From positions 62,001 through 126,000 of the forward strand of contig CAJQUW010007275.1 of assembly GCA_907163375.1 (NCBI GenBank): a stretch of DNA of 64,000 nt, in the 5' to 3' direction. Position 1 is the stretch's first letter; each line of letters begins with the position of its first letter. The notes beneath the pieces are model-generated. The model was given only the letters and a program-made list of their open reading frames with translations, was not told where the DNA came from and did not search any database. The DNA comes from Prostheceraeus crozeri. Its lineage: Eukaryota; Platyhelminthes; Polycladida; Euryleptidae. The translations under genes and the position numbers were made by a program. Of the stretch, positions 34,796-63,949 are shown piece after piece.

Positions 34796-35080
34796 GTTTT
34801 GGGCTCTAGCGTCAAAACGAAGCATCGGATGGGAAAACGGATTTCAGATTTGGAATCAGCATGAAATTCTCTATCAACATGGTGAGTTTCAAGTCAATCG
34901 GAGAGAAAAAATTTTTCTTCACGAAATTTTTTCGAAAAAACGAGTTAGAATTTTTGCGATGGCTGTGGGCTGTAGAGCCGAAACGAAGCATCGGATGGGA
35001 AAACGGAGGCCAGATTCGGATTCAGCGTCAAATTCTACATGGAAATGCTATATTTTCAGCTCAATCGGAGCACTAGAACC
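34480..35080. repeat. Subterminal direct repeats, three units
   Basis: A module with GGAAAACGGAGGCCAGATT and GGATTCAGCGTGAAATTCT followed by CAATCGGAGAGAAAAAAT occurs at about 34490, 34816 and 34980. The last two begin with AAACGAAGCATCGGATGGG. Only the first lies wholly within the inverted repeat; the right end has fewer copies. Confidence 0.75.
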
Positions 35081-35143
35081 GGAGATAGACGGATTTAAAG
35101 ATTTGGATGATGGGTATTACGTCATCAGCTGATCGCCACACAC

Positions 35144-35150
35144 TATATAA
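35144..35150 (+). promoter_or_regulatory. TATA box of the left, rightward transcription unit
   Basis: CACTATATAAGCTGGG lies just inside the subterminal repeats, about 30 bp after TTACGTCATCAG (CRE-like). It points rightward into the element. A piggyBac insertion begins 34 bp downstream. Confidence 0.6.
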
Positions 35151-35437
35151 GCTGGGAACCGACAGACAGAGACTTGTCATTAGCCCTTTCGATCCTGTTT
35201 CGCATCTATGGCTTCCTCCCCTAGCTGCCTGTAAAAATCCTAAAATTTCGGGATTTTTCAAATGCTGTTTACTCGACCAAAAAGTGTTGTCCTGACCCCA
35301 ACCAACACTAAATAAGATGCCAAATAAATCGAATAGTCCCCTAACATCAGAAAACATGCAAAAACAGTCAAAATTATCCAAAAAATTTATATTTTTTTAA
35401 AAATACAAAAATCATTAAATTTTCACCTAGTGGGACA

Positions 35438-37157: not shown

Positions 37158-37589
37158 TGAAAGAATGATCAGAAATTAGTTGTGACAAATGACAATATAC
37201 CGTGCAAGCTGCTCTACCTAACAACGAATCAGCCACGCGCAATCTTTACCGGACGTCATTATACAATCACCATCAATCAATACTTTGAATATGCTTCATG
37301 TGTGGCTCGACTGAATGCAGGTGACATCGCACTGCAACCGCTGAGTTGTATTGCCGACAATCAGATCATGTAAAGACAGCAGAAACACAAGACACAGCTG
37401 ATCGCAGCAGCATGAAACTAATGCATTACTTGCCCTTAATAGACTTGATGTACGTGTACATGTAACCTACTACATGTACATGTACCATTACAGCGGTTAA
37501 TTCTATTAAATATAGTTGGTTTGCACCATAGAAATCGACAACAATAAAACCTCTAGAACGGAGGTTAAGCTTCATGCAATACACAATAG

Positions 37590-37790
37590 TGGCACATAAA
37601 TCGCACGCATTTTCACTTAGATACACTTGTCAAAGGCTGCATCGTTGGGTCAGAATCAGTCACATGTGTAAATCTAAGCTTTTCATTGGTCATTCATGCC
37701 CCAACTTAGTTCCCCCGGCGGTGCCGCGACCTTGAGTCAATTTCCATTCTAGTCAACTTCAGTTAAACAATCTATTTCTATGGTTTGCAC
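37590..37790. repeat. Third, diverged copy of the TATA-containing module
   Basis: Shares CAGAATCAGTCAC, GCCCCAACT..GTT and CCTTGAGTCA blocks in order with 2816-3003 and 15101-15283. It lies in the piggyBac upstream region between the transposase start and the right terminus, so the module may have originated as piggyBac-type upstream sequence. Confidence 0.6.
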
Positions 37791-37944
37791 ATAATATGCG
37801 CTAAAGACAACATCTAACGTGTTTTACAAGCAACTGGAATACTTCACGCCTAAACAGTTAGCAAAATTTCTCATGACGACACGCTGTCGTCATAGCGCAT
37901 GTAAGCGTGACGACAACGTTTCGTCATAGGATCGAAAGGGTTAA

Positions 37945-38990
37945 TACGAGAGATTGTCAAAGGTAGGTCGTCTCTTTGAGCTCCGATGATAGCTTCGGAC
38001 ATTCCAAATTCCGGGTTTCTGTAAGAAACCGACTTAAAAAATTTCATTGCTGATATCAGCTAAGGCGTCAGACTTAGAGGTTAGCCAGGAGATGGCCTTC
38101 GTCTCCAGGCCATAAAATACTCCAAAACTTTAAAGGCTTGTAACTTTGCTTCTACAAGTCCGTTTGACTTGATTCAAAAAAGGTTCGGTCGCTATTGACC
38201 TGCCCTAAGTGATAGACTACTTATAAAATTTCATAAGTAGTACTAAAAAGTTGAAAAATTTAAATTCACTAGTTTTGGAGGTTTTCTGGGGTCTTCGACC
38301 CTGCTGAAGTCAATGAAAGCATTTTTACTGATGTCTGAGCCAGTCTTCTCATGTTACAAGCAGCTTTTTACTGAAAGCGAGCAAGACACGGAGAGTTTTG
38401 CTGTAATATTCCACTGACAGGGTGTTCCTTCGGGACGGCGGATGATGCCGTAGCGATAAGTGTGGCAAGGGAGTGTGTCATAGTTTAGACCGAAACCGCT
38501 GGGGGAACTCATGTTGGGCATTTGACACAGTTCTCAACGTAGCACTTTGAACGCCAATTGGTTGAGTCTTAGCTATTTTGTCATGGGTAGCCTCTAAACA
38601 TCTCCATTGCAAAACGCTGGTGAATCAAGCTCTCTACCGCTTGCTATCAAGCTGATCAAAGCAGTGACTTGGGATGTTTCCTCAACGTTTTCAAGTATGC
38701 TGAGTTCAAATCTGCTATCAGATTTCAAATTTAACTAAGTCTAAGGCAGCTTTGAGGGGCTAGATCCCAGCTACTGTTCACTACCTTTGACTCGGCGTTG
38801 CTGTTACCACTTCGGGGCAGTGACAATGATGTCTTCAGCTGTAAATAGCGGGTATCGGGGAAGATCTTTCACTTCCCTAGTGATCAGTACAAGGCCTTCG
38901 GGCTGTCGACGTGATCGAGTGTCACTCACTATACTCAAATCTATCATTCCACACTAAGTGTAAAATCATTGTTTTCCGTTTTTCGCTTCA
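37945..38990 (+). other. Probable leader intron before the zinc-finger/coiled-coil gene
   Basis: A donor CAAAG|GTAGGT at 37963 and an acceptor TTCGCTTCAG at 38991, three bases before the ATG at 38994, would define a 1.03-kb leader intron of the left transcription unit. No coding frame lies within. A block at 38403-38475 resembles 40341-40415 (direct repeat, roughly 75% by eye). Confidence 0.45.
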
Positions 38991-38993
38991 GAA

Positions 38994-40166
38994 ATGCCGA
39001 AATACAATAATGTCAAGACCAGTTTCAAACTGTGTCAATGCCGGAAGGTATTCCGAGCTGACGCCTTCAAGAAACACGCTTGCACTAGCAAGAAACAGAT
39101 AGGGGTCGCTAGCTACTATTGCGGAGCCCACAAAGTCAGTCGCTTAAGTGAGCGGCTGGATGATTGGCACTCACAACACAGCGAGTGTCAAGCAGGGGAA
39201 GTAGGCGAAGAAGAACGGAGTTCACTCTTCGCCACTGAGCTCCGTTCTTTGGAGCTACAATCCGTCAACAAACAAGTACGGAGCTCACTCTTCGCCACTG
39301 AGGCCACTGAGCTACAATCCGCCATTGAAGCGATTGCCGCTGTATCCTCACTTAGTAGCGAGAGCTCGCTGTCCAGCAGCGATAGTGAGGAGGAGGAGGA
39401 GGGAGACCTACAGTCGCAACTTATCGAGGACGTCGACCTCGATCGCGAGACCGCTGCAGCCGTGACTGCGAGCGGAATTGCAACGCAATGTCGCAATTTT
39501 GTCAAGCGCCCGCCGGTGATCGCCGAACGGGAGAGACTAAAGAAAGAGGTGGAGAAGTTGAAGGAGGAGGCCTTCTCATACAAGGCAAAGTATGAGGACC
39601 TAAAGAACGTGGCCGGAGAGATGAAGAAGGTGAAGGAGAGATTAAGCTAGCGGGATGGCGAGTTGGAGCAGGAGAGGCTCAAGACTCTCGAGGGGAAAGC
39701 CAGAGAAGAGGCTTTGCTAGCATAGAGGGAAAGTAGGGAGAAGGAGATACGAAGGTTGAAGGAGGAAGTGGAGAGACTCCGTGTGCAGATGGCTAAGGTT
39801 GTCGAGACGAACCACGAGCTGCACCGTTCGGCGCAGCTGGTGGATCGCGATCGAAGGGTGCGTTCCAGTCGTCTGCACATCCCTATTAGAAAGGGGAGAG
39901 TAGCAGAAACTCCTCTCTTGTACGAGCGTGATAGAGGGGAGAAATGCTACTCTCGGGTGAAGAAAGGGGTGGAGTGTCTACACTTCACCTTCGATCATCG
40001 TGATCCGATCTAGAATTTCCTTTATGAGGAAGCGTCCGAGAAGATCTGTAAGTAAAAATGACTAAATTAAAATGTAAGATGATAACTCACTACTTCTTTC
40101 TTTACAGACATCCAAGAGAAGCGACTACCCGCCCCGTTGCCGGAGCCGCAGTCGAAACAGCAAGCC
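38994..40166 (+). pseudogene. Zinc-finger/coiled-coil protein with in-frame TAG codons
   Basis: The reading frame starts at ATG 38994 and stays open in one frame for over 1 kb, apart from TAG codons at 39648-39650, about 39720-39722 and 40011-40013. Near the start is CQCRKVFRADAFKKHAC, a C2HC-like finger, with a second Cys/His cluster around residue 42-65. A repeated RSSLFATE block follows, then an acidic Ser-rich region, then a long Lys/Glu coiled coil (about residues 180-300). The 3' end shows a good intron: donor GATCT|GTAAGT at 40048, acceptor TTCTTTACAG at 40107 (60 nt), after which the frame ends in TGA at about 40164. The function is unknown. It is the first gene of the left, rightward unit. 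All three stops could be single C-to-T changes of CAG. Confidence 0.6.
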
Positions 40167-40340
40167 TGAGTCCCTATCACACACCCCGAGAACGCCACAA
40201 ACGGTCCTTATGGGGCCACCATGGGGCAAGACATGATAGAACCTCCTCGCGGTTCGCCCTGGGCAGTCTTCGGACTGGCGAATACTATCATTAAGTTGAA
40301 TCTGCTATCAGTCAACTTGAACGTTGCAAATGAAGTTCGG

Positions 40341-40925
40341 TGTAATACTTCCTTTCGACGGGCGTTCCTGTAAAGGGCGGCGGTGAAACCCGTAGCTATG
40401 TATACCGCAAGGGACATTCGGCAATGGTCAATCTTGTTAAACCTCTCTGCGTCATGTTTGCAAGTGATTGCCTCTGTCTCAGCGTAGTATGCATTCGCGC
40501 CAGGGCGACATTTAGCCAACTGTCGAAGGTTGCCTTATAAACTATCCATTGCATACGTTATGAGAACCATGAGTTCTACTTGCCTCTATCAATGAGATGA
40601 ATTGATGAATGGAATGAAATGGGAGGACACTCACGCGCCACACGCAACATAACACACTTCTCTCTTCCGTAGTCTAACAAGCTCTTTACACATGGATCGC
40701 AGTCGATTGCTATCCCTGTATCAGAAGTGTAAGCCATCTTAATTTTATTTAACACTATTTCATCTACCATTATCATCCATATGAAATGTTATAAGAATTG
40801 CAAGTTAAACTAAGTGTGCTACTATTTCCAAATGAAAAAGTATACATGGTTAAATCATCCACTGGAGCCCCATTCAAGTAAGTCAGTATGAAAGCAAAGA
40901 TAATACGAAATAAAAATTTATTATG
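40341..40925. other. Spacer with a direct repeat
   Basis: 40341-40415 resembles 38403-38475. The minus-strand frame 40208-40519 has no recognisable domain and I do not call it a gene. Confidence 0.4.
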
Positions 40926-41410
40926 GCATGTATTTCAAAAGGTCTTCATCGTCAATATCGTCCCAGAGTCTGACTTCACATAGATCACAAAAACAGTTCA
41001 CTTGCTTCAATCGTTCTTCTACCGCGAGCCTCACTTTGTCGATGTACTACCACTCCGCCATAGTTCGTGGCTGGGAGTTAGGGGTGTACCATTCCCATAA
41101 TTGGTGGAGGAATTTGGTGCTGGTGATCTCCATCACATCATCAGTATCGTACTGCAGATACTTCCACCTCACGCCTGTTAAGTCGGGATACTCCTTCTCA
41201 CATACACTCTCCTCTTCGTCATCCGCTGCTAATGACAACTTTCTGATATTGTCGAGTCGGTACACCTTCTCTACCTTCCCCTTTGTTGGAGCGTTTGGTG
41301 CAACGAGCGCCTTTGGTGATGAGCATGGAGAAGAGAATTTTGTATTCGGTGTTTTTGGAGGGCTTGTCGTGTTGACTGTGAATAATAACTTTGAAATGTT
41401 TCCTAATTCT
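40923..41410 (-). pseudogene. Small minus-strand Polinton gene, start undefined
   Basis: A minus-strand frame runs from about 41410 to a TAA at 40923-40925, with a single in-frame TAG at about 41045-41047. It has no ATG at its start. A splice acceptor TTATTATTCACAG lies near 41390, so the first exon may lie elsewhere. The N-terminal part is Pro/Ser/Lys-rich. The middle is acidic (DDEEESVCEKEYPD) and contains a Trp/Tyr-rich region (WKYLQYD, LHQLWEWY). The tail has CFCDLCEVRLWDDIDDEDLL with a Cys trio. A minus-strand AATAAA overlaps the stop. It is divergent from the polymerase gene, sharing the 41.4-41.6 kb promoter region. Function unknown. Confidence 0.45.
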
Positions 41411-41471
41411 TAAGTATAAACAAGCAACCAATCAAAATCAACAGCCAATGAATGATGAATATGAAAGTATA

Positions 41472-41481
41472 TATGTAAAGT
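41472..41481 (+). promoter_or_regulatory. TATA-like box upstream of the polymerase gene
   Basis: GTATATATGTAAAG lies about 190 bp upstream of the start codon at 41659, in the gap between the divergent small gene and the polymerase. Confidence 0.4.
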
Positions 41482-41658
41482 GACATCCGTATCATTTCAC
41501 TCTGTCTTTGAGACGTGTAAGTAAAGTGTTCTCTAGCGAATTCTATATTTGAGGCGTACAAGTGAGCTGCTCTCTAGTAAAATCCAAATTTAAGACGTAT
41601 TATTTCAGTGAAGTCTCTATCTTGTTGAAGAATCAACCTTAAACATAATTTTGTTGAA

Positions 41659-44600
41659 ATGGTAAGTTAAGGAATTCATCAGTCATCTACCTCAAACGTG
41701 TGGCTAATAGCATCTTCCTCAATTTCAGGCATCAACTTCATCACCAACGCCCTCCCTTCTCGAGGAAAGTTTAGAGTTGTTGAGTCAAGGTAGGTTGTAA
41801 CATTACACTGAGACTTGAACAGAGATGATAGAATGATTTCTCTTTCAGGCGATACCAGTCCCATCTCGAGCGAGTCGGATAACAACAGCGACTCCATGTC
41901 AACATTGTCGCGGGAATGCAACGATCGGGAATGTGCTGACTGTGGACACATCTTCACGAGGAAGCGTGATCTCGTCCGACACATCAAGCGAGGTGTTTGT
42001 AGACCTAAGTCAGCATCAATCTCCGAAGGTGGTGATGATTCTGTTAACGATGTCTCCTTTTCTTGCGATTTATGCATTCAGTCTTTTGAGTCACATTTTG
42101 AACTATCTTCACATAGACATCGACATACACACAGTGACGATAGTTATACTAACAGCACCTCCTCTATCCGACTCTCTGAAGTGTCGATAAATAATTTAGT
42201 GAGGAACTACCAGATGGAATCCTCAGAAACCATTACTGACTTTGAAGAATGGTTTCATCAAAATTCATCTTTCATTGGTGCGCTCTTCAACAATTTAGCC
42301 AATTTTAGAATGAAGGCGCTCATCTATCTCAAAATAAAATATGCAAAAATCGACCACCATACTGGTCAAATAGTAGAGAGGTTGGAGTTTCACATACCTT
42401 CCTCTCCTGCAACCGAAGTTGTAGACTGCAAGTCTTGGATAAATTTTCATATCCGAGGGTTAAAATTAAACATAGATAAATTTAACGAGCGTGATAGTGG
42501 TCTCGTTTTTGATGGTATTGAGACCGCCATGATTAAAATAACTTAACTAGAGAACTACTCTGGACGAGGCTCCTTTAAACTTCCGAAAAATTTAAAAAAT
42601 AAAACAGCAGTCATTTCTGTAGATTGCGAATCGCACTGTTTTAAGTATGCCGTCCTCTCCATTCTCCACTATAATGATGTACATAATAGCCGATACCGTA
42701 AGAGTAAGTATCAACAGTGGGAGAATGAATTAAAGTTTGATGACTGCAATAGTGAAGATATGAAAATTAAAGATATAGAAAAATTTGAAAAATTGAACAA
42801 CATCAAAATAGTTCTCCATGTTTGGGAAAAAGGATTGAAGTGTGTCCGCTACAACTCGCGTTCGAGTTGTTATGACCACGTTGTCAACCTTTTATTAGTA
42901 AGACAGGATGATAGTGAGGAATGGCACTACTGCGGTATTCCCAAAATTTCTCGCTTATACCACTACTCAAGAAATTCTAGCTCATGAGAGATTTATTACT
43001 GTGACCGATGCATTCGGAACTTTAGGAGTAAAAAAAAATTTGAAACTTTTTACGAATGGTGTAAGCGAGGTAAACTACAAATGGAGCGCATGCCCAAAGA
43101 TAAGGAGTTTTCATATAGAGAGAATGGCGATGAGCTAAGTCCTCTTCGTGTCATCTATGCTGACATCGAATGCTATATCGATGATAACACCCATCGAGCA
43201 GCAGCCATTTCCTGCTATGAAGTATGGCATGACCATTTCCAAAATAGAAAAAATAAAATGCACGTCTGGCAAGGTGAGGATTGTATTTACCAATTCCTAC
43301 AATTCCTCGAACAGGCTGTAAAATTTCAACAAAAGTATGATGGTGAACTCTATCGCAGATCATTGCATATGACAGCAGATGATCAAGCAAAATTTGATAG
43401 TTGCAACGTTTGCCTCAAATGTAGGAAAACATTTAATGATGATAAGATTAAGAAAGTGCGCGACCATGATCACATCACTGGTAAATTTAGAAACGCACTA
43501 TATTCAAAATGCAATTTTTCACTTAGTATGAAACGGCGTACATTACCACTTTTTTTCATAATTTCAAGGGCTACGACAGCCATATGATAATAAAAGGAGG
43601 TTTAGGTCTAATGAAAGGGTGGAAGCTTGATGTAATAGCACAAACGAGAGAGAAGTTTATGGCCATGACAGCAAATGTGCCTGTTGACAAAACTAAAGAA
43701 AATAAGACGGTCTATTTTGATATAAAAGTTTTAGATTCCTACCAATTTATGACTGCATCACTGGCCTCTCTCGTGCAAAATCTACAGTCTCTTCCACTAA
43801 CACAAAATCTTAAGAAACAATATCCAAATCTAACCGATGAAGTCATCACACGGAAAGGAGTCTTTCCATATGCATATTTTGATGCGATTAGTAAACTCGG
43901 CGAGACTTCTCTTCCGCCCATAGATAAATTTAGAAATGATTTGACCGGCGCAGAATGTAAGACCGAAGATTATGATCATGCACAAGATGCATGGATAAAA
44001 TTTGACTGCCATACATTTGGCGAATATATGATTGCCTATCTTAAGTTAGATGTATTTTTGCTGGCTGATGTATTTCAGGAATTTTGCCGAGTGGCATTAG
44101 AAGAAGATAAGTTAGATCCCGTCCACTTTGTCAGTCTGCCAGCCATGTCATTTAAGTCTGCTTTTAAAATGACTGGTGAGACCATTCATCTCTTACAAGA
44201 TCAAGAGATGTATAATTTATTTGAGCGAGGAATTCGCGGTGGTCTCACATTTGTAAATAAACATAGGTTAAAATCAAAATTAGTAGGCAATGATCAGACT
44301 CATCTTAAGTATTATTGACCAAATAATTTATATGGTAGTTCACTATCCAAACCACTCCCTCACTCTGAGTTTAGCTGGTTAGATGATAGTGAAATTCAGC
44401 ATCTCTCCAACCCTTCTAACATACTAGCAATTCCAGATGAAGGTGATTGGGGATATTATTTTGAGATAGATCTAATCTATCCAAATAATATTAAACATAA
44501 AACCGTAGATTTTCCACTCGCACCCGAATCAGGTGAAGTGACCAAAGATATGTTTTCGGACTTTATGAAACAATTTCATAAAGATTTAGAATCATGCGGT

Positions 44601-45628
44601 CAACCCGACTATAAGCCTTGCCGCAAACTTTTACTCACCCAATATGATAAGGAAAACTATCTAGTTCACTTTAGCATCTTAAAATTTTAATTAGAAATGG
44701 GTATGATTTTAAAAAGAGTTCACCGCATTATTAAATTTAGACAGAAAGCCTTCCTCAAACCATATATTGATAGCAACAGCCAGAAACGTGCACTAGCCCA
44801 AAATAATTTTGAAAAGGATTTTTATAAGTATAAGAATAATAGTCTATTTGGTAAGACGATGGAGGATGTTAGAAAACGTGTAAACTATAAACTAGTCAAT
44901 GATGTTACAAAATTTAAGAAATTGGTCTCATCACCTCTATTCATCGATAGAGACATTATCGATGAGGACCTTGTAGGTGTTAAAATGATAAAATCTGAAG
45001 TTGAGTTGTGCAAGCCCATCTATATTGGCCAAGCTGTACTAGATTACTCTAAGCTTGAAATGTACCAACTCTTTTATAAAATACTAAAACCATGTCCTCT
45101 CGTAAAAGAGGTTCGTTTGTTGGGTGGTGATACAGATAGTTTCTTCTTAGGTATTACCACTCAAAAAGATTTAAATTTCAATGAAGTAGGAAAATCTTTA
45201 GAAAGATATTTTGATACATCAAATTATCCTACTGATCACCCACTCTACTCCATCAAAAATAAGGCAAAACTTGGCTGCTTTAAGGATGAGACAGCAGGGA
45301 AGGAAATAGATGAAATGATTCTCCTCCGCCCTAAAATGTATTCCATGAAATTAAAGGATAGAGACGATAGTATTAAGCGCGCTAAAGGCATATCAAGATC
45401 ATTGGTCTCTAACATGAAACATAAAAATTTCAGGGAAGCCTATAGAAATAAAAATATAAGTTTGTCAATATGACAATCTTAAAATCTAAGTCGCATGAGA
45501 TCAAAACTCATACTTTTAGGAAACGGGCGCTTTCAGCATGGGAGGATAAGAGGTGTTGGATAGGACATTACACATCTCTTCCACATGGACATCCTGACAC
45601 AAACATACCACCACCCAAAAGAATTTAA
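41659..45628 (+). pseudogene. polB: Protein-primed family B DNA polymerase, spliced and multiply broken
   Basis: The ATG at 41659-41661 is followed at once by a 67-nt intron (41662-41728, GTAAGT...TTTCAG). Exon 2 (41729-41789) starts Ala-Ser-Thr. A 59-nt intron (41790-41848) follows, then a long exon. Early there are two C2H2 fingers (CADCGHIFTRKRDLVRHIK; CDLC...H). Polymerase landmarks follow: an exonuclease-type VIYADIECYID, an HNH-like DHDHITGKFRNALY segment, an Exo II region near 43560, NNLYG of motif A near 44330, KNNSLFGKTM of motif B and GGDTDSFF of motif C. Breaks are an in-frame TAA at 42544, frame changes at about 42960-43010 and 43555, a TGA at 44316 at the motif A Asp position, a TAA near 44686 and a frame change near 45470. 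The tail runs to TAA at 45626-45628. The normal role is replication of the element primed by a terminal protein. This copy cannot be functional. Confidence 0.88.
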
Positions 45629-45814
45629 CTCACACTACCACATTCAGGAGACGTCTTAGCATAATCATCCTTAACTTAGAATTTTCATGTTGATTTCTGT
45701 AGATAAACATTGCTGTTATATGTATCGCATGAAATCGTTTCTTCCTTGTGAATATATGCCTACAGTCAGCCCATTCCCCCTATATCTGTGAAAAGACTTT
45801 TTCATACACATATT

Positions 45815-45828
45815 TTTATTTCAATAAA
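45815..45828. terminator. Shared bidirectional polyadenylation signals
   Basis: Plus-strand AATAAA at 45823-45828 and minus-strand AATAAA (plus 45815-45820) lie within 14 bp of each other, between the 3' ends of the convergent polymerase (45628) and structural-protein (45844) genes. Confidence 0.7.
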
Positions 45829-45843
45829 CATATCACAATGACT

Positions 45844-47368
45844 TCATTTTGTTTTCCGAAACACTAAAGTTACGAGGGATTTAGTATCTTTCACATGGAT
45901 GCACTCTTGTAAACCATTGGTAATTTTGATAGCAATAGAGGGTATAGTTTGTTTGACGACGGGATGATAGAAAATAGATTCAAACATCTCGACTATTCCA
46001 TATGAAGCGTCTTTATCATGAATGAAATCACGTAAAATGTATTCTTTTTTCTCACCAACAGAAATAGGTAGAATCAAATCACTTTGAATGTAAAGGCGCT
46101 GTTCATGTTTATCAAGTGTCATTGGTGTTTCTATACCAATCGTATGCGCAGCAGTAAACACAGTTTGTAGCATTGAAAAACCAAAGCGTTTTTTAAAATT
46201 TTTACTCAATTGACATTGAATGTCATCACCCAGTTTCAGAACAACGCGTTGATTTTCAATTGAAAACGAAATGTGGTGTGTCTTTACATCATATTTACTT
46301 TTCATCACATGCTTCAACTTCTGTTGTACATATATAAGGATTTACTACATGAATGAAGCTTTCAACTGTATGATATAGACGCGGCATTATATTGATAGCA
46401 ACTTTAGATTCTTCATAAGACTGGTAAATTTTCTTGATGCGATCGCCATAGATGTCCACCCACCATTCATCATTAACTGAATCAGCTTTATTGTGATATT
46501 CATGAGAAGCATACACCACACCGCTTCCAATAATAGGTGTATAATGTCTTACAAAATGACGCAAGGTTGGAGAGAAATAAACTGTAAGTTTGTCATTATA
46601 TTTCTGAATAACCAACTTATTTTTGTCCGCCATAATTTTCTCTCCATACTTCTTACCCACAGTCCCATTCCATCGTTTTACTAACTCAATAAGTGATAAA
46701 GGTTGAACACCACGCTTTTTCAAAATGATGCGTTCTTCGCATTCTACAACATCTTCATCAAATATTTTAAATTTATAATGAAATTTGTTGATTCGATTTG
46801 AATAAACTTTTTTAGCATTTGCAGTAGCAATTGACGTTAGACGTAGTCCATGGCCAAAACCGAGATGTGGATAGAATTCATTATCCAACCTCAGTGTAAG
46901 ACCTTTAGTAAAAGAATGAAAGCGAAGGAACTGTCTCCCACTCCAATGATAGATAGTAAACTCATAAACTTTCTGATCCTTATTCTTCATGATGGAAGTA
47001 TTACCACTGTTGAATGCCTTAATAATTTTCTCCTTCCCAAATGGACCATAATAATCTGATTTTATCTGAATCCATTCATAGTTCCACTTTCCATCTGACG
47101 TTAAATTGTATGGGATCTGGAATGCATTATTCATCGTTATTCCATCATGGGTGCGAGGAGTCAATATCATTTCTTCCAAATCATTCACATTCTGAATATT
47201 GCTATCATAGCAAATACTAGAAGCGCCAACCTCCCATTCACCTTCTAAATGTAGTGGGCGATTTAATTCTACTCGATAGTCTGATGGTTTATTTTTGGGA
47301 AATTTATTCATAGAAGCATTACTGGGCAAGTAGATTAGAATGAGGCAGTTGGATTCATAGCTCAAACC
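45844..47368 (-). CDS. Probable Polinton structural protein, split by a frameshift
   Basis: Two minus-strand frames, 46295-47368 (about 357 codons) and 45844-46317, overlap by 23 bp in different frames and together give about 510 residues. The first begins without ATG. It follows a splice acceptor (AACAATGTTTAG, exon from 47368) preceded by a CTAAC branch-point-like motif, in phase with a leader ATG. The N-terminal part has LPSNASMNKFPKNKPSDYRV and HLEGEWEVGASSICYD. The C-terminal frame has LYIQSDLILPISVGEKKEY and a final beta-rich segment. I recognise this pairing as a family repeatedly found beside Polinton integrases and capsid genes. A capsid or penton-like role is inference. Beta-rich composition fits that. 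It is the last gene of the leftward set. Confidence 0.6.
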
Positions 47369-47399
47369 CTAAACATTGTTAGTTACAACTTTGCATGAA

Positions 47400-48488
47400 T
47401 CACTGTCGATCACATAGATGAAAGATGTCGGCACGACGCATCCAAGAATTCATACTTGAAGGATAACCAGTCCATTTAACAAGACACCATTCTTCACCTT
47501 GTCTTTTTTTACATCGAATGATTTTCTCTACCAAATATGTTTCACTTTCAGTGACTACCTCAATCTCATCGCGGTAAAAGCTACCCTCAATTTCTTCATT
47601 ATCGTAATCTTTCAACTTGTAGGTGGTCGGAGAGTCTTTTTGATCAATCCTTGATACTGTAAATACCTCCTCTGTCCAATTCGGAAGGTACCCTTTAGCG
47701 AAAACACTTTTCACTTTTGAGATACGAACTTTATCACCAATTTTCACATCACTTTTCACATGAGTGCGTTTACGTTGGAATGATTCGTGCACTTTATCTA
47801 CATTGTCAGCATTTACATCTACTGGTCTGAGTCCAATAAAACGATGGATAGAGTGATTGTAGGCATGGAGTGTATCTTGTAGAAACTTTGTCCAATTTTG
47901 TGTCAAGTTCGCAGTAAAATGTCGCCACAAACGATTTTTTAATGTGCGATTAAAACGTTCAACGAGTGCAGCTTTATAAGCACTCTTTACACTAAACAAC
48001 TCAATGTCATGCCTCTCAAATAATCTTCTCACATGCTGATTTTCGAACTCTTTTCTTTGATCACTCTGAATTCTTTTTAGAATGCGACCTTCTCGAAAAA
48101 TTGTTTGGAATGCTTTTGCTACTCCTTTCCCTTCTTTAGTTTTTAAAGGTTGAGCCCATGCATAACGCGAGAAAATATCAATGACGGTTAAAATAAAATT
48201 ATTACCCGAGTTATGTTTTGAAATGGAGGCAACATCACACAAATCTGCTTGCCACTGCTCATCGATGTCATGAACAATATAATGGCGGGTGCGGTACTTC
48301 TTTTTCGCTTGTTTGTGGAGTGTATAGGTAGCCTGACCCTTTGACCATCGTTTCACTTGTGATTGTGGAAGACCACTCGCTTTTGATAATTTCTTGATAG
48401 ATGCAAATCCTGCCGGATGTTTTACATCATAAAAGATTGACTTCAAACGTTCAGTCGATGACGACTGACTCTTTTTCCTCCTTCTCAT
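47400..48488 (-). CDS. int: Polinton integrase (DDE, rve) with chromodomain
   Basis: Starts at ATG 48488, chosen because codons further upstream overlap the Cys-rich gene and look unlike an integrase; 362 residues. A basic N-terminus with a helix-turn-helix-like SIKKLSKASGLPQSQVKRW precedes the rve core. The first Asp is in QWQADLCDV, the second in RIQSDQRKEF and the Glu in AALVERFNRTLKNR. The C-terminal part has an SH3-like segment (GDKVRISK) and a chromodomain (YLVEKIIRCKK, WCLVKWTGYPSSMNSW). The enzyme would insert the element and make the 6-bp duplication, and the chromodomain may guide it to marked chromatin. The reading frame is intact. It overlaps the preceding gene by 38 bp. Confidence 0.9.
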   Translation of the reverse strand: MRRRKKSQSSSTERLKSIFYDVKHPAGFASIKKLSKASGLPQSQVKRWSKGQATYTLHKQAKKKYRTRHYIVHDIDEQWQADLCDVASISKHNSGNNFILTVIDIFSRYAWAQPLKTKEGKGVAKAFQTIFREGRILKRIQSDQRKEFENQHVRRLFERHDIELFSVKSAYKAALVERFNRTLKNRLWRHFTANLTQNWTKFLQDTLHAYNHSIHRFIGLRPVDVNADNVDKVHESFQRKRTHVKSDVKIGDKVRISKVKSVFAKGYLPNWTEEVFTVSRIDQKDSPTTYKLKDYDNEEIEGSFYRDEIEVVTESETYLVEKIIRCKKRQGEEWCLVKWTGYPSSMNSWMRRADIFHLCDRQ

Positions 48489-48666
48489 CTTTTTGTTTTC
48501 TTGCCTTTCTACATTTACAATAACTGCAGCATTTAGCTTTAGCGGTTTTGCGATCGTGTTCACATTGCTTAGGAGTTTCATTGTGAGAGCTGGCGCAGCA
48601 AGTGCAAGTGACAACGACACTCACCTCTGGCGGTTCATTACATGGCAAGCAACACATCTGCTTCAT
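48451..48666 (-). CDS. Small Cys-rich protein
   Basis: 71 codons from ATG 48666. It has about 14 Cys, in CCLPC, CTCCAS and CCSYCKCRK clusters, suggesting metal binding, and a Lys/Glu-rich tail. It starts 2 bp after the previous gene's stop and overlaps the integrase start by 38 bp, a virus-like packing. Function unknown. Confidence 0.5.
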   Translation of the reverse strand: MKQMCCLPCNEPPEVSVVVTCTCCASSHNETPKQCEHDRKTAKAKCCSYCKCRKARKQKDEKEEKESVVID

Positions 48667-48667
48667 A

Positions 48668-49344
48668 TTAATAGTCTGAGAACATGTATTTCTTGGGAGG
48701 AGCTGTTTTACGTTTTCCTTTTACTAGTTTTAGTGGTGGCGTAGATCTACGTCGAGTTCTTCCTCTTGTTTGCTTAGTGAGTGTGGGAGGGGATATAGCA
48801 GGTGACGTCTTAAACCAATTTGTTGGCATTTTCATCGTCTGAAGCATTGGAGCAGTAGCTACTGTTGAATCAAGTTCTTTCAATGTCTCATTATTCAAAG
48901 CAAATTTTGGTACATTATGCTTTTTCAATAGTTTAAGAAAGTATGACCAACCAGGTGGAACATAGCCCTGACGGCGCTTTCTACGTGTCGCATACTGAAT
49001 CAAGCATCAATCACTTTATTTTCATCTGTAATGATTTCTCCTCTATCATTTGCATTGAGATGGGGTTCAATACTATTGAAAAGAGATATGGCATGTGCGC
49101 GAGATGCTAAAGGTGTAGTAGTCGATACAGAGTCACGCATCTTATTCTTCAAGTTTTGCAATTGCTCAACAGTTTCCGATTGTAATAATACAGCACGATG
49201 TGGATCTTTGATGTGAACATTTTGCTGATAATCTATTTCTTTCCTATACATTTGATTTGCAAGAGGTTGCTTTACTTGCTGCATGGCAGTCAATTGTACA
49301 TATTCATCCTGAGGAATAACAATCATGCGAGAATAAGAACTCAT
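48668..49344 (-). CDS. Conserved Polinton accessory protein split by a -1 frame change
   Basis: The first frame (49344-49000, ATG 49344) and the second (from the codon at 49003 to 48668) overlap by 4 nt. The second has no ATG near its start. They probably represent one protein of about 225 residues, interrupted at GCTTGATTC, where stepping back one base continues the second frame. The first part is Gln-rich and helical (MIVIPQDEYVQLTAMQQ). The second starts with a basic YATRRKRRQGYVPPGW segment and ends in an Arg/Lys/Pro-rich tail (TRGRTRRRSTPP), suggesting nucleic-acid binding. The ATPase stop and this gene's ATG overlap as ATGA. Function unknown. Either a programmed frameshift or a one-base loss would explain the break. 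Confidence 0.5.
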
Positions 49345-49958
49345 AGTTTGTAGATAATCATGGGAGTTTTCAAAATATCACTTCGAAATCTAAATTTTTC
49401 CGGAAACTCTTGCGTAAAGTCAATGAATAAGTAACCGTGTGGTTTTTCAGTAGCTGCTTGAAAAATTTCAATTAAGGCTTTTGATCCTCTTGGTGCAACT
49501 TGTCGCGCTAAAATTTCAAATTGACTTTTATCTCGCGGATTCTTGAAAATATCATAATAGTGTGTATTCAGGTTTCGTGTACGAGCTTCTTTTCCATCAG
49601 GAAACAAATTTTGTGTGATATAGATGATAAAGCACCTTTTATGGTGTGCTGCGCGAGTGAACATATCTGTAACATCTTTTGAATTCTCACTTTCTTTTAA
49701 TAAATCATCCAATACAACAACATCATTAGACTGAAGTTTATCCACTGCAATAATTCCTTCATGTCGAATAAAGTTGCGACTTTGCAATTCCTGAAACAGC
49801 GACGGTTGATAAATACCATAACACCAAATCACTCGATTGATAGGTTCCTTAAACAACTCCCTTCTTTTATTCAATAAATTCAGCGTGAAAACAGTTTTAC
49901 CTGCATGAGATGGACCTGATACAGTCAGAACTTTATCACATTGAAGTCTGAAATCCAT
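49341..49958 (-). CDS. Packaging-type ATPase (A32/FtsK-like)
   Basis: Start ATG 49958 (A at -3, G at +4), 205 residues. Walker A is SGPSHAGKTVF at about residues 14-24. Walker B is NDVVVLDDLL. ITQNLFPDGKEARTRNLN and FKNPRDKSQFEILARQ further on match the arrangement of the Polinton/poxvirus A32-type genome-packaging ATPases. An open in-frame extension runs upstream to 50006 but has no ATG and overlaps the pX-like gene. The protein would power DNA packaging into capsids, and its intact frame contrasts with the ruined polymerase. The stop overlaps the next gene's ATG by one base pair step (ATGA). Confidence 0.85.
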   Translation of the reverse strand: MDFRLQCDKVLTVSGPSHAGKTVFTLNLLNKRRELFKEPINRVIWCYGIYQPSLFQELQSRNFIRHEGIIAVDKLQSNDVVVLDDLLKESENSKDVTDMFTRAAHHKRCFIIYITQNLFPDGKEARTRNLNTHYYDIFKNPRDKSQFEILARQVAPRGSKALIEIFQAATEKPHGYLFIDFTQEFPEKFRFRSDILKTPMIIYKL

Positions 49959-49989
49959 TATAATACTTTGAGATTCAACATTTGCATAA

Positions 49990-50355
49990 TTAACGTCTAG
50001 AGCCAAAGATATTACCCAATACGTTGCCCACGATAGGAGCTAGCATCGGTAGTAACGCTGGAAGGAGACCACCCTTTTGTGTTAGAGTTTCCCTCTTTCT
50101 TTGAAGGGTGACTTTAGGATTGGAGATGAAACGAAATTTCGTAGCATATCGCTTAAGTAACTTTCGTTGTTTTGGTGCTAATTTCTTCGTCCTCAACTTT
50201 CTCACATGAGAAATAATTTCACGAATGAATTTATCGTTAGCATGTCGTATAGCATTGTATCGCTGATTTGCTTTCATTCGTCGGAGAGCTTGAATGGCTG
50301 AAGAAAACTTTGAAAACTTTTGACTTTTACGTTTCATCATTTTACGTTTCGCCAT
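49990..50355 (-). CDS. Adenovirus pX/pVI-like basic membrane-active protein
   Basis: 121 codons from ATG 50355. The first 90 residues are strongly basic (KRKMMKRKSQK, RKLRTKKLAPKQRKLLKR). After a Gly-Gly pair comes the hydrophobic segment LLPALLPMLAPIVGNVLG and a short IFGSRR end. A basic DNA-condensing part joined to a Gly-Gly and a hydrophobic tail is the layout of adenovirus pX/mu-type core proteins, known also from Polinton relatives. The Gly-Gly could be a protease cleavage site, although I found no protease gene here. Stop at 49990, inside the ATPase upstream frame. Confidence 0.65.
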   Translation of the reverse strand: MAKRKMMKRKSQKFSKFSSAIQALRRMKANQRYNAIRHANDKFIREIISHVRKLRTKKLAPKQRKLLKRYATKFRFISNPKVTLQRKRETLTQKGGLLPALLPMLAPIVGNVLGNIFGSRR

Positions 50356-50406
50356 TTTCCGTGTTAGTCTTTGCTAAAACCTGTCTTTACCACATTTGCA
50401 TAGGTA

Positions 50407-50730
50407 CTAACTATTGCGGCATAAGTGACACTCGAAATGAGCAATATCACAGTGGTTACATTTGCAAAGTTGAATGCAATTACGTATGAAACAGCGTTGA
50501 CAAAAAGCATGCTTACATCTCTTGAAGATGCGCTTTTCATTTCCATCCTTTCGCTTACATACATCGCAACACACAGTTTCACCGTTACTGATGTCTATAG
50601 CAAGTCTTTTTGAAGATATGAATTTGCTAGCCTTTTCTAAATAATAGACGCATGTACAGAAGGAATATACTTCGAGAGTGAGCAGGCATAGCTCGAAAAC
50701 CAGTTGTGCTACAATCAAGTACCACTGCAT
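50407..50730 (-). CDS. RING-like protein with N-terminal hydrophobic segment
   Basis: Starts at ATG 50730, two bases after the upstream gene's TGA; 107 residues. The N-terminal 35 residues are hydrophobic (WYLIVAQLVFELCLLTLEVY), possibly a membrane anchor. Residues about 52-95 carry CCDVC, then CKHAFCQRC and CKCNHC, a C3HC4 RING spacing. A RING ubiquitin ligase acting on host factors is plausible for a virus-like element, but that is inference. Confidence 0.6.
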   Translation of the reverse strand: MQWYLIVAQLVFELCLLTLEVYSFCTCVYYLEKASKFISSKRLAIDISNGETVCCDVCKRKDGNEKRIFKRCKHAFCQRCFIRNCIQLCKCNHCDIAHFECHLCRNS

Positions 50731-50732
50731 TT

Positions 50733-51143
50733 TCAATTTTTCTTTATAGAAAGTTGAATGTGAATATCTGAAATCGCTTCAATCACTAGACTGCTGCCAT
50801 GATGGTTAAATGCGTTAAGACGTTCAGCAATTTTTATCATATGTCTTTTAAAAAATTCTTCGGGGTGATCTACTACTTCCATTGAATAAGAAGCAAAATG
50901 GAAAGAGCGACTTTCCACCTCTTCCTTTCCAAAATGACTAAACTTAATTTTCGCAACTAATCGCGCCATGACAATGCTATCAGAGAATGTATTCATTAAC
51001 TCTAGAAATAGAGTGCTAGCATTATCGACCACTGCTTCGATGTCGGTCTCATCTTTATGAAAATTTATCACATAATCTTGAACAGCTCCTTTTAAACTTT
51101 GCCTATGAAAATGTAATGTTCCGCAGTCGTTTGAGAAAGACAT
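50733..51143 (-). CDS. Small conserved-looking protein of unknown function
   Basis: 136 codons from ATG 51143 (A at -3). Mixed alpha/beta composition, with TLFLELMNTF and the segment VARLVAKIKFSHFG in the middle and a final SLVIEAISDIHIQLSI beta-like end. There is no catalytic motif. Its TGA is followed two bases later by the ATG of the RING-like gene. Position between exonuclease and RING genes suggests an early or replication-linked role, which is inference. Confidence 0.5.
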   Translation of the reverse strand: MSFSNDCGTLHFHRQSLKGAVQDYVINFHKDETDIEAVVDNASTLFLELMNTFSDSIVMARLVAKIKFSHFGKEEVESRSFHFASYSMEVVDHPEEFFKRHMIKIAERLNAFNHHGSSLVIEAISDIHIQLSIKKN

Positions 51144-51227
51144 GATCGCCCTTTATCTAACCCATCCATTGCATGAAAACAACTCTTCTCATAGTAACAT
51201 TTATTGAATAACGGTAACAAGCATGCA

Positions 51228-51776
51228 TTATAAATCAATGGTTTGAAAGAGATAAAACAGATACAGCTGGTAACTATCATACAGCGAGCAATGATAACCA
51301 TACAGGACTTTGGCAGTGTTGAGGTAAGGAGGAAAGAAGCATTGGTTATGAACGTAGCTACTACAACGAACAGACAAAATAGGAACACACAAATCCTTAA
51401 AATGTTTCGTGACTTCATGGTAATGTTGATTCACTCTACTATCCCAAGGTGGGAGCAAAATGTCATCAATGATTAGATTGGGAAATACTTTCCTCTCCTT
51501 ACCAGGATTATTACAAAAGATGCGTATAACATTGAAAGCAGCTAACCATCGTTTAAAGTCAATAAGAAGAGCACTCTCACAAGAAAAGCCATAGTCTTGC
51601 AAATATTTCAGATTAAGTCCATGAATGTGTTTTCTCGCCCATTGATCAACATTGGGATCGCATTTGGCATGTTGATGATAGACACTAACAATCTGATATG
51701 TCCAATTGTTCATAGCAATAGCGCTGAGCTCCTGTACAGGTTCACCCTCACAATCCATAAAAATGATGATAGAAGC
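51228..51776 (-). CDS. DEDDh exonuclease-like protein
   Basis: The exon starts after the acceptor CCGTTTTAG (exon from 51776) and reads in phase Ala-Ser-Ile-Ile-Ile-Phe into MDCEGEPVQEL. The ATG at 51758 would cut into this beta strand. The pattern fits the DEDDh 3'-5' exonuclease fold: Asp-x-Glu (DCE) as Exo I, HGLNLKYLQDYGF and the DFKRWLAAF helix in the middle, then HCSLYD with His and Asp five apart as Exo III. Total about 182 residues. No thumb or fingers are seen, so it is a stand-alone exonuclease, separate from the polymerase's own exonuclease domain. Proofreading, end trimming or RNA decay are possible roles. The middle catalytic Asp is not certain by eye. Confidence 0.6.
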   Translation of the reverse strand, partial: ASIIIFMDCEGEPVQELSAIAMNNWTYQIVSVYHQHAKCDPNVDQWARKHIHGLNLKYLQDYGFSCESALLIDFKRWLAAFNVIRIFCNNPGKERKVFPNLIIDDILLPPWDSRVNQHYHEVTKHFKDLCVPILSVRCSSYVHNQCFFPPYLNTAKVLYGYHCSLYDSYQLYLFYLFQTIDL

Positions 51777-51810
51777 CTAAAACGGAAATTTACACATCTA
51801 AGGAAACGTT

Positions 51811-52011
51811 CTATAACATATTACAAAATGAAGAGTTACATCGATGCTTTTCACGACAAAATACACAAATGATATGATGGCAACGAAGAAGTAAAATGTA
51901 TCTAATAAGACCACGTCTACGACACTCAAAGCACATAAGCGAATTGTCATATGGTAGAGTTAGGAAAGGACTACTAATTCTCCTTCTTTGATTTGCGTTT
52001 TGAGGCAGCAT
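51811..52011 (-). CDS. Second small RING-like protein
   Basis: 66 codons from ATG 52011, overlapping the end of the upstream gene by 38 bp in another frame. CFECRRR, then CHHIICVFC and CNSSFC give C-x2-C ... C-x-H-x2-C-x2-C ... C-x4-C, a RING-type ligand pattern. The N-terminus is basic. Small size and overlap make it less certain than the RING-like gene at 50407-50730. Confidence 0.45.
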   Translation of the reverse strand: MLPQNANQRRRISSPFLTLPYDNSLMCFECRRRGLIRYILLLRCHHIICVFCREKHRCNSSFCNML

Positions 52012-52745
52012 TCTTCTCCGACTTGCGCTTCGTACCACTGCTGTTAAGGATTTGATCAATTATGTCGTCCACGTTGGGTGGTTTTGGAATATATAGGATG
52101 GATTCCATATGCATGGAGAGAGAGGCTATTTTATTATCCTTGTGTCGACCATAATATAGCCCATTCACTTTGAAAAGGATATCCCAAGTACCTTCTCCGA
52201 GCTCATCACATCTGATGGGTATTGATTGATCTCCCTCCTTCTTATAGTAAGTACACCAATGTGATACCGGTAGGCAAATGTGATTACCATCCCAAATCTT
52301 TCTATACGGAGTATCCTTGTCATCTCTCGCCTTCCACTCTTGAGCAAGAGGAGTAGGAATGTCCATATTTAGTGTCACGTACTCCTCAATAATATCAAGT
52401 TGGCGGCGAATGTACGGACTCACGGGGATCAGTATGTAGTCCCCATACTGATTGTGCATTATCTTGACATCCGTGGAAGGGAGCATTCCCGTTTGGAGTA
52501 CTACGCTATGATCGTCATAACGCAAGACTTGTTTAAATTTACGCTGTAGCGGTGTAGGATTATGTACCTTGGTTGTTTCTTCTACTGGCGTCAGTTGTAG
52601 ATGATCTGATCGTAGAGAACCTTGTAACGTTTGACCGCCATTTTGTCCTACTAGTGCAGCAGATGGAGTAGATGCCTGAAAATGAAAAAGATTGTATTAA
52701 GTTTACGTTCAAGGGAGGAGAGGGAGGGAAGTAGCGACTTACCAT
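51974..52745 (-). CDS. First gene of the leftward unit; ATG split by an intron
   Basis: ATG at 52745-52743 is followed directly by a 67-nt intron (52742-52676, GTAAGT...CATTTTCAG). Exon 2 (52675-51974) continues in phase with Ala-Ser-Thr-Pro and stays open to the stop, giving 234 residues. The N-terminal 60 residues are Thr/Gln-rich. The middle has YGDYILIPVSPYIRRQL, WDGNHICLPVSHW and FKVNGLYYGRH, beta-rich and possibly an OB-like single-strand DNA-binding fold (low certainty). The C-terminus is KRKSEKNAASKRKSKKEN, nuclear-localisation-like. A TATA box lies about 95 bp upstream. This is the promoter-proximal gene of the minus-strand set. Confidence 0.65.
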
Positions 52746-52842
52746 TTTAGTTGGATAATAGAATAGAGAGAGAGAAAAAATGTGCGTCCGTCACTCGTGT
52801 GATTCAACGATGGAATGATTCTCACTGTGGAAGGCTCGCTAT

Positions 52843-52850
52843 TTATATAA
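52843..52850 (-). promoter_or_regulatory. TATA box of the leftward transcription unit
   Basis: On the minus strand TTATATAAATAGCG lies about 95 bp upstream of the split ATG at 52745, just inside the right inverted repeat. Repeated TCATTGGA-type motifs (CCAATGAG on the minus strand, CCAAT-like) lie directly upstream. Confidence 0.65.
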
Positions 52851-52967
52851 AAATGCTTGATTCTCATTGGATGATGATCCTCATTGGACAATAACATCAA
52901 GCTGATTCCAAATCTGGCCTCCGTTTACCAATCCGAGCCTTCGTTCGCCCGCTGGAGCTGTTTCTTG

Positions 52968-53504
52968 GGAAATTCTAACTCTGTCGTTTTTCGCCAATCT
53001 CCCAAAATCTTAAATGGCGTCTCACATCTAAACGAAGACAGATATGAACAAGCCGTTTCTTTCAGTGAATTTGTCTCACTCCTAGCTTTCAAACGAGCTA
53101 TTGCACGACAAAATCCGTCCTCTAGAAGCAAAGTTGGAAGGTCGGTGCCGGGGCGGGGGGGACGTCAGCGAAATTTTTTCTCTCCGATTGCTTTCAAATT
53201 CACAATACAGATGCAGAATTTCACGCTGAATCCGAATCTGGCCTCCGTTTTCCCATCCGAGCACTGCTTCCACTCGAAACATCCCATTTTCAACACAACA
53301 TTCATCAGATTTCACGAAAATCATCACACACTATAGCCTCAAGACAAAACCTGGCGGTCGCCCAAGTCCACCACGACAATCTGTCGTTCCAGAGGGGGGG
53401 GGACGTCAGCGAACCTGGACCAACCTGGCCGGCACACCACGACAGACCTCTGTCGTTCCAGAGGGGGGGGGCGCCGGTCGGGTGTTCGCCGTTTTCTTAC
53501 TACT
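52968..53504. repeat. Polinton right terminal inverted repeat
   Basis: Reverse complement of 34255-34795, ending CGCCGTTTTCTTACTACT at 53504. Frames 52884-53336 and 53082-53327 mirror those of the left arm and are not genes. Confidence 0.9.
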
Positions 53505-62007: not shown

Positions 62008-62124
62008 GCCTAGTGCTGGATGGGTCTGGTACCACTTGACGACTCTACTGTCTGACTCTACTATCTATCCGTCTGACTCTATTGTCTTACCGTCTGACTC
62101 TATTTTACACCAATCGATTCTACT

Positions 62125-63295: not shown

Positions 63296-63324
63296 GAAAG
63301 GGTTAGGGGTTAGGAGAGTGAAGA

Positions 63325-63798: not shown

Positions 63799-63810
63799 AG
63801 TCCCCAATTG

Positions 63811-63900
63811 GACCCGGGCCGATTTGACCCGGGCCGATGTGATCCGGGCCGATTTGACCCGGGCCGATTTGATCTGGGCCAATCTGACCCGGGCTATGTA
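63811..63900 (+). repeat. Six 15-bp tandem repeats upstream of a third promoter
   Basis: Units begin at 63811, 63826, 63841, 63856, 63871 and 63886; the consensus is GACCCGGGCCGATTT. The fifth and sixth are diverged. Each contains a CCCGGG palindrome. The phased array ends 50 bp before a TATA box, so it may bind a regulatory protein cooperatively. Confidence 0.9.
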
Positions 63901-63949
63901 TGGCTCCGGGGCATACATTCAACTCCGGGGCAATGGACCCATTAAAATG

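Follow-up and report, generated by a model that had tools for sequence, protein, structure and literature searches.

Vertebrate Mavericks/Polintons carry polymerase and integrase genes, and the adenovirus E2B genes for pTP and DNA polymerase have a small start exon in common. In the excerpted accounts, the two E2B products are replication proteins whose genes are expressed via alternative splicing (PMC9499273), and the genes of intact vertebrate elements are those in which introns were not observed (PMC8097293). Our literature search on E2B start exons and introns after an ATG found no statement of a common E2B start exon, and no start-codon introns in Polintons were found among titles and abstract starts. 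Elsewhere in adenovirus, as far as the excerpt extends, the tripartite leader lacks AUGs, while Ad2 IVa2 begins with a short coding exon close to its promoter, which is joined to the main part of the gene by splicing, with low-frequency alternative 3′ splice sites that preserve the first four residues (PMC7851563). Flatworm spliced leaders, again from an excerpt, end with few exceptions in an AUG directly before the GU donor and can provide the start codon (PMC12582326).

Results

A degraded Polinton with two predicted split start codons

The window (the whole 64-kb stretch of DNA that was analyzed) contains a 19.25-kb Polinton/Maverick element. Specifically, the element has long terminal inverted repeats (TIRs; arms of 433 and 111 nt with complementarity of 98 and 99%), ends that read 5′-AGTAGTAA, matching the 5′-AG ends of Polintons, and a 6-bp target-site duplication, ATTGCA, flanking both ends. 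It also encodes a family B DNA polymerase, interrupted in the present copy (DNA_pol_B_2, E 5.4e-09, in the ORF at 43527-44315), and a retroviral-type integrase (rve, 5.4e-09; Chromo, 6.7e-07). The ORF at 49341..50039 is packaging-ATPase-like, a label that we base on its P-loop, GPSHAGKT; Pfam gave no match for it and its PHROG and NCBIfam ATPase matches were weak. No protease or capsid was matched among the element ORFs scanned, which are a subset of all ORFs. NCBIfam and PHROGs returned weak matches at most for six proteins (best E 0.0037), tblastn with 11 element pieces found no further copy in the 64-kb window (E 1e-3), and neither Rfam families at gathering score nor tRNAs were found in it. 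The features are as follows.

34255..53504: Polinton/Maverick element, 19.25 kb, degraded copy
about 34255-34790: left TIR
41468..41475, plus strand: TATA-like box TATATATG before the polymerase start exon
41659..41661, plus strand: polymerase start codon, the last three bases of exon 1 (ATG-GTAAGT junction)
41662..41728, plus strand: polymerase intron 1, 67 nt, phase 0, ends CAG
41729..41789, plus strand: polymerase exon 2, opens GCATCAACT (Ala-Ser-Thr)
41790..41848, plus strand: probable polymerase intron 2, 59 nt, phase 1 (donor 41790, score 10.1)
41849..45473, plus strand: rest of the polymerase gene, interrupted
46295..47368, minus strand: structural-type ORF, N-terminal frame disturbed in the present copy
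47400..48620, minus strand: integrase, rve core and chromodomain
49341..50039, minus strand: packaging-ATPase-like ORF, first ATG 49958
51228..51776, minus strand: exonuclease-like ORF behind TTTTAG, a phase-0 acceptor; the gene1 leader may be spliced to this ORF as well
51974..52675, minus strand: gene1 body, conserved ~240-aa protein, opens GCATCTACT (Ala-Ser-Thr)
52676..52742, minus strand: gene1 intron 1, 67 nt, phase 0, ends CAG
52743..52745, minus strand: gene1 start codon, the last three bases of the leader exon (ATG-GTAAGT junction)
52840..52849, minus strand: TATA-like box TATATAAATA before the gene1 start exon
about 52970-53504: right TIR

A first-pass annotation of this DNA had described, at both 41659 and 52745, an ATG followed directly by GTAAGT, an intron of exactly 67 nt and an in-phase Ala-Ser-Thr, and our analysis confirmed each point exactly: in both genes the ATG is followed by a 67-nt intron that opens with GTAAGT and ends in CAG, and then by GCATC(A/T)ACT. 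When splice sites of the element were scored with consensus matrices, the polymerase donor (10.0) was 5th of 1017 on the plus strand and its acceptor, 41729, ranked 11 of 1151; the gene1 donor (10.0) was the third listed of 1057 on the minus strand and its acceptor, 52675, ranked 2 of 1147. From this anatomy we infer that splicing at both predicted introns occurs. For the polymerase, the window copy supports a separate leader, equivalent to that of gene1 and ending in the start codon; relatives were gathered for the structural ORF, gene1 and the exonuclease-like ORF, and the polymerase leader was read from the window copy. Downstream, the polymerase has stops at 42546, 42987, 44318 and 44690 and a frame change near 43527-43587, which we read as decay, though unrecognized introns may contribute. 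Endonuclease_7 and DNA_pol_B_2 matched different polymerase pieces, which were searched apart, and a C2H2-like finger in the pieces scored below the cut-off. Because the polymerase is interrupted, the present copy is ill suited to functional testing.

Relatives of gene1 keep the acceptor position

Conservation of gene1 was read from translated ORFs, in which the first M could be ATG, GTG or TTG. The earliest in-frame ATG of the gene1 body, 52486, is ORF codon 71 and lies within the region common to the relatives. The ORF reaches upstream in three of the nine relatives (P0027, P0031 and P0032), and all three read Q-(A/S)S across the boundary, with Q corresponding to CAG or CAA. In P0032, which is 46% identical to gene1, the protein reads M-V-S and later F-Q then S-S-T-S at the boundary, with 20 codons from the V to the boundary Q. 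This is the reading expected of ATG-GTAAGT...CAG, and P0032 is alone among the 64 relatives' proteins collected in having an M-V-S start. Three other relatives (P0030, P0033 and P0034) begin close to the gene1 N-terminus, and local starts are possible in these. The boundary residues and the M-V-S of P0032 support a gene1 leader exon that ends in the start codon and an acceptor position that is kept in relatives.

Searches for further relatives used alignments of the structural ORF (A1; 21 of 25 relatives), of gene1 (A2; the window piece and all 9 relatives) and of the exonuclease-like ORF (A3; the window piece and 28 of 30 relatives, leaving out P0044 and P0053). No relative was found in IMG/VR scans with the structural ORF, A1, A2, a polymerase piece or A3, in phage records searched in protein mode with one polymerase piece, or in GTDB contigs searched with A2. 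The pattern ATG-GT...CAG-GCNTCNAC retrieved nine IMG/VR stretches, none matching the 11 pieces (tblastn, E 0.01). Against solved structures, the exonuclease-like ORF, A3 and A2 gave best E values of 0.087 or worse, and A1 gave none.

The two leaders are probably related

The opposite strands, and a TATA-like box for each gene, make one cis leader for the polymerase and gene1 impossible. Thus, the single leader of the first-pass annotation gives way to two distinct, parallel leaders. The sequence ATGGTAAGT occurs twice in the 64 kb, exactly at both split starts (0.40 expected). When the 55-nt intron cores were compared ungapped in fixed register, 29 of 55 positions were identical, whereas shuffled sequences averaged 14.6-15.6; p ranged from 0 to 4e-5 across five block-shuffle controls (50,000 shuffles in each), and 0 of 20,000 dinucleotide shuffles equalled the match. 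Moreover, among 384 GT-N63-AG stretches the two introns were mutual best matches, with the next best at 26 and 23. This register match, well above the shuffled controls, indicates that the two leaders are probably related and probably have a common origin.

Convergence or chance would account for the resemblance without common origin, and we judge this unlikely, though not negligibly so. Two copies of ATGGTAAGT arose in 4 of 100 shuffled windows, the stretches before the two ATGs have no clear similarity, and an unregistered scan of the window found other 55-nt stretches matching either core at 30-31 of 55, so that relatedness of the cores rests on the register set by the splice sites. It is in that register, however, that the block shuffles and the mutual best matches tell against chance, and both introns are first introns, identical in length, phase and the first three exon-2 residues.

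Candidate further targets of the gene1 leader

The name of the exonuclease-like ORF comes from the first-pass annotation and no library match stands behind it; its D-x-E we take to resemble a DEDD motif. Its acceptor, 51776, is moderate (score 5.4, rank 56 of 1147 on the minus strand of the element, with the same matrices). Among the 56 GT sites upstream of it, 52742 scores 10.0 and the runner-up 6.2, which bears out, for this stretch, the claim that there is no other well-placed donor. The in-phase AG before each ORF, which had been offered as evidence, carries little weight, since every stop-to-stop ORF after a TAG has one; such an AG precedes 14 of the 72 window ORFs of at least 100 aa, and directly precedes 4 of 14 minus-strand ORFs examined.

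Comparison of the relatives P0047 and P0063 showed that 54 of 75 residues match past the boundary Q and 2 of 23 before it. Their upstream peptides contain no G, W or MV, and therefore no ATGGT is present in any forward frame in the 69 and 99 nt upstream. Among the 30 exonuclease relatives, the called start lies past the first D in 4 and at most three residues before it in 13. A Met immediately precedes the first D in 10, and Met 51758 of the window is placed likewise. In eight (P0048, P0052, P0054, P0056, P0057, P0061, P0062 and P0064), a Met located no later than the first strand is a plausible local start; the boundary of P0048 and P0057 reads M-Q. The acceptor position of the exonuclease-like ORF is supported in that it agrees with some relatives.

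The structural-type ORF, for whose family Pfam and PDB gave no match, was rejected as a target of the gene1 leader. Its own Met lies 9-14 residues before a conserved SNAS motif in 21 of 25 relatives, acceptor 47368 is poor (score −0.8, rank 453 of 1147 on the minus strand of the element), and the window ORF is out of frame relative to P0002. Hence, of the two additional targets that had been proposed, 51776 finds support in some relatives and 47368 does not.

Discussion

On the evidence of anatomy, boundary residues and the M-V-S of P0032, we consider it fairly probable that the element carries related split-start cassettes, with sharing by the exonuclease-like ORF as a possible addition. In the polymerase and in gene1 on the opposite strand, a promoter-proximal exon would stop exactly at the initiator ATG, with a 67-nt spliceosomal intron directly after it. 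The cassettes probably arose by duplication or gene conversion spanning the ATG through the first exon-2 codons, the promoters being different. Intron removal in the host nucleus would join the ATG to Ala-Ser-Thr and open the frame, such that correct initiation of either protein would require splicing. The gene1 donor may also be spliced alternatively to the start-poor exonuclease-like ORF at 51776.

This last step is the most tentative. As a single start route for the exonuclease-like ORF it appears the likeliest, favored by the only strong donor upstream, the many relatives without a convincing local start and the acceptor-like phase-0 boundary, yet we give it somewhat less than an even chance. 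Nearly even are the chances that the split starts are real and the exonuclease-like gene begins in some way of its own, without a shared leader, a reading that jointly covers a start at Met 51758, another upstream exon or entry into the frame without splicing. The relatives with a plausible local Met or with a Met directly before the first D, the window Met before D and the moderate acceptor all fit an own start; however, starting at 51758 would drop the hydrophobic stretch ahead of D, four relatives have called starts past D, and the conservation between P0047 and P0063 stops at the acceptor position. Host trans-splicing, in which an AUG-ending spliced leader of the flatworm kind is joined to the phase-0 acceptor 51776, seems improbable, given that the polymerase and gene1 have their own cis donors and that Rfam gave no family at gathering score in a search confined to the 64-kb window. 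Least probable is the complete first-pass scheme, in which alternative splicing would let the gene1 leader serve the structural ORF in addition to gene1 and the exonuclease-like ORF. An in-phase AG does precede all three bodies, one strong donor lies upstream of 51776, and four structural relatives (P0001, 96% identical, P0014, P0015 and P0016) start only at a later Met, but the own Met in the other relatives, the poor acceptor and the disturbed frame all speak against it.

If the split-start cassettes are real, ORF-based annotation of such Polintons would miss true N-termini, and the start codons of the polymerase and gene1 would depend on host splicing, making expression of the element nuclear and spliceosome-gated. 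It would also connect the way Polintons are expressed with coding start exons of the adenovirus type. The present element resembles vertebrate Mavericks/Polintons in its TIRs, 6-bp target duplication, polymerase and integrase; its predicted start-codon introns would set this lineage apart from the intact vertebrate elements, intronless in the excerpted description (PMC8097293).

The adenovirus major late leader, to which the locus had been likened, joins one leader to many bodies, but it does not donate a start codon, since the tripartite leader is AUG-less in the excerpted source (PMC7851563); it is thus the wrong parallel for the gene1 leader exon, which ends in ATG. IVa2 is nearer, yet its start exon holds four codons rather than one, its variants belong to one gene rather than separate genes, and the Polinton leaders are predicted from sequence anatomy. 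Relative to E2B, the Polinton start exons are similar but unshared, on opposite strands and with separate TATA-like boxes. The flatworm spliced leader comes in trans from a host RNA, whereas the Polinton leader would be encoded in cis by the element. The coding start exon type represented by IVa2 and the AUG-ending spliced leaders of flatworms are closer parallels than the major late leader. We regard as doubtful the broader notion of a portable leader cassette in this Polinton clade, one that ends in AUG, was copied ahead of the polymerase and gene1 on opposite strands and, in the gene1 unit, also serves a start-less exonuclease-like gene by alternative splicing; a single cis leader would then provide start codons in a manner comparable to the AUG-ending spliced leader that flatworms use in trans.

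Probable split starts of polymerase and gene1

The family B polymerase gene and gene1, a conserved gene of ~240 aa, lie on opposite strands of a Polinton, as follows:

34255-53504: Polinton, 19,250 bp, with terminal inverted repeats, identical ends and a 6-bp duplication
41468, plus strand: TATA-like box of the polymerase gene, from sequence
41659-41661, plus strand: polymerase ATG
41790-41848, plus strand: further, probable small polymerase intron (donor score 10.1)
46295-47368, minus strand: structural ORF
51228-51776, minus strand: exonuclease-like ORF
51974-52675, minus strand: gene1 body
52745-52743, minus strand: gene1 ATG
52849, minus strand: TATA-like box of gene1, from sequence

The first-pass annotation described ATG|GTAAGT starts, 67-nt introns and Ala-Ser-Thr continuations in both genes, all of which are exact in the sequence. 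The motif ATGGTAAGT occurs twice in the window, each time at one of these starts; because at least two copies arose in 4 of 100 shuffles, the motif by itself is only suggestive. Scored with matrices of consensus values, the intron 1 donors both reach 10.0, and the acceptors rank 11/1151 (polymerase) and 2/1147 (gene1) within the element. The intron cores are identical at 29 of 55 positions in register, whereas five block-shuffle controls averaged 14.6-15.6 (p at most 4e-5), and the two introns are reciprocally best among the 384 GT-N63-AG stretches of the window (runners-up 26 and 23). Since an unconstrained window scan with the cores reaches 30-31/55, this relatedness depends on the register that the splice sites impose. 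The stretches preceding the two ATGs show no clear likeness. We read the two genes as carrying two related leader cassettes (a short start exon ending at the ATG plus the 67-nt intron), not one leader.

The gene1 start in relatives

The gene1 ORF has no in-frame ATG before codon 71, which falls within the region shared by its relatives, so the true start should be upstream. Three of nine gene1 relatives have ORFs that continue past the boundary, the residue position at the proposed acceptor, and all three, P0027 (68% identity), P0031 (46%) and P0032 (46%), have Q directly before Ala-Ser or Ser-Ser. The P0032 N terminus reads M-V-S, with 20 codons from V to the boundary Q. As ATGGTAAGT encodes M-V-S, this start looks like the same leader followed by a 60-nt intron that stays open by chance; it is unique among the 64 proteins fetched. 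The remaining six relatives start inside the protein; P0030, P0033 and P0034 start near the gene1 N terminus and may use a local start.

Possible reach of the gene1 leader

It had also been proposed that the gene1 leader is alternatively spliced to the exonuclease-like and structural ORFs. The in-phase AG directly ahead of the exonuclease-like ORF (TTTTAG) is present but carries little weight by itself, because a TAG stop itself creates an in-phase AG: 14 of 72 window ORFs of at least 100 aa are alike, as are 4 of 14 minus-strand ORFs examined, including the ATPase-like ORF and the ORF at 50373, each with an ATG of its own. The absence of a rival donor was borne out, as 52742, at 10.0, tops the 56 GT sites that precede 51776, the runner-up reaching 6.2. 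Thirty relatives of this ORF were classed by start: ten begin at M immediately before the first D, three with M-F-x-D, four after the first D, and three later or as fragments (P0045, P0046 and P0053); in eight, a Met that could be a local start lies at the first strand or ahead of it, and in two (P0047 and P0063) the ORF runs upstream. The latter two match at 54/75 positions after the boundary Q versus 2/23 before it, and conservation thus stops at the acceptor position. The M-Q boundary of P0048 and P0057 fits an acceptor or a plain start alike. Neither G, W nor MV occurs in the peptides upstream of the boundary in P0047 and P0063, which excludes ATGGT in every forward frame over 69 and 99 nt upstream, and an ATG|GT start exon would need to be farther off. 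A gene1 leader shared with the exonuclease-like ORF is a real possibility that falls somewhat short of an even chance.

Leader splicing to the structural ORF was rejected, given an acceptor score of -0.8 (rank 453/1147) and an own Met 9-14 residues before SNAS in 21 of 25 relatives; P0001, P0014, P0015 and P0016 start at later Mets. In 7 of the 21 (P0002, P0003, P0006, P0010, P0012, P0024 and P0025) the called ORF begins before this Met, which is therefore a true ATG, and P0013 has M-M there; for the rest, the caller's M may stand for another start codon. P0002 (85% identical) is open from its own ATG, whereas the ATG of the window at 47358 is in a different frame, indicating that the N-terminal frame of the window copy is disturbed. 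Its missing start is most simply explained by decay rather than splicing, and P0001 (96% identical) may have the same change.

State of the Polinton

The terminal inverted repeat arms (433 and 111 nt) are 98 and 99% complementary, and both termini are AGTAGTAA, flanked by ATTGCA duplications. The element encodes an integrase with a chromodomain. Its polymerase gene has Endonuclease_7 and DNA_pol_B_2 matches on separate pieces, and a C2H2-like finger (22.6 bits, under the Pfam cut-off of 25.2). The Endonuclease_7 match (E 6.4e-06; 42988-43584, plus strand) lies on the N-terminal side of the polymerase domain.

This copy is degraded, as the polymerase and structural gene readings are broken. Stops and one frame change interrupt the former; we read these as decay, although they may instead be unrecognised introns. 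The structural gene has a frame change near 46295-46341, where P0001 is unbroken. The top minus-strand donor-like score in the element (11.6; 48624, CCAGAG|GTGAGTGT) coincides with a frame change of the integrase reading, which may be an intron or frame damage; the best acceptor-like site beyond it, 48589 (5.9), would imply a very short intron.

A piggyBac-type transposase is nested within the element at about 35180-37944 (DDE_Tnp_1_7, E 4.5e-31 on 36141-36734), with CCCTTTCGATCC-like inverted ends adjoining TTAG and TTAA. Two small cysteine/histidine-rich ORFs, RING-like by eye (51811-52059 and 50407-50778, minus strand), have their first ATG at codon 17, and the former overlaps the gene1 end in a different frame. 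ORF 41047-41409 (minus strand), divergent from the polymerase, has its first ATG at codon 93 and is possibly another spliced or damaged gene. Elsewhere in the window, ORFs 62098-62808 and 63322-63798 (plus strand) share the motifs MYPGDTIV/MFEGDTIV and may be related genes in tandem; a tandem repeat at 63789-63908 has a 15-nt unit of CCGATTTGACCCGGG type, in six overlapping 45-nt copies spaced by 15.

Proposed mechanism and known parallels

Host RNA polymerase II would most likely initiate at each TATA-like box, and the spliceosome would most likely excise the 67-nt intron, joining the ATG to the gene body. Such an arrangement might restrict expression to spliced nuclear transcripts and make one start codon available to several bodies.

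Adenovirus pTP and polymerase have a small start exon in common. Passages from PMC11071296, PMC7070027, PMC13148777 and PMC8363768 do not address start exons, and PMC8097293 states that introns were not observed in intact vertebrate Mavericks. The adenovirus tripartite leader is without AUGs, according to PMC7851563, which also describes alternative 3' splice sites in Ad2 IVa2 that retain the first four residues. E2B pTP and polymerase are produced through alternative splicing (PMC9499273), and flatworm spliced leaders, with few exceptions, end in an AUG before GU (PMC12582326).
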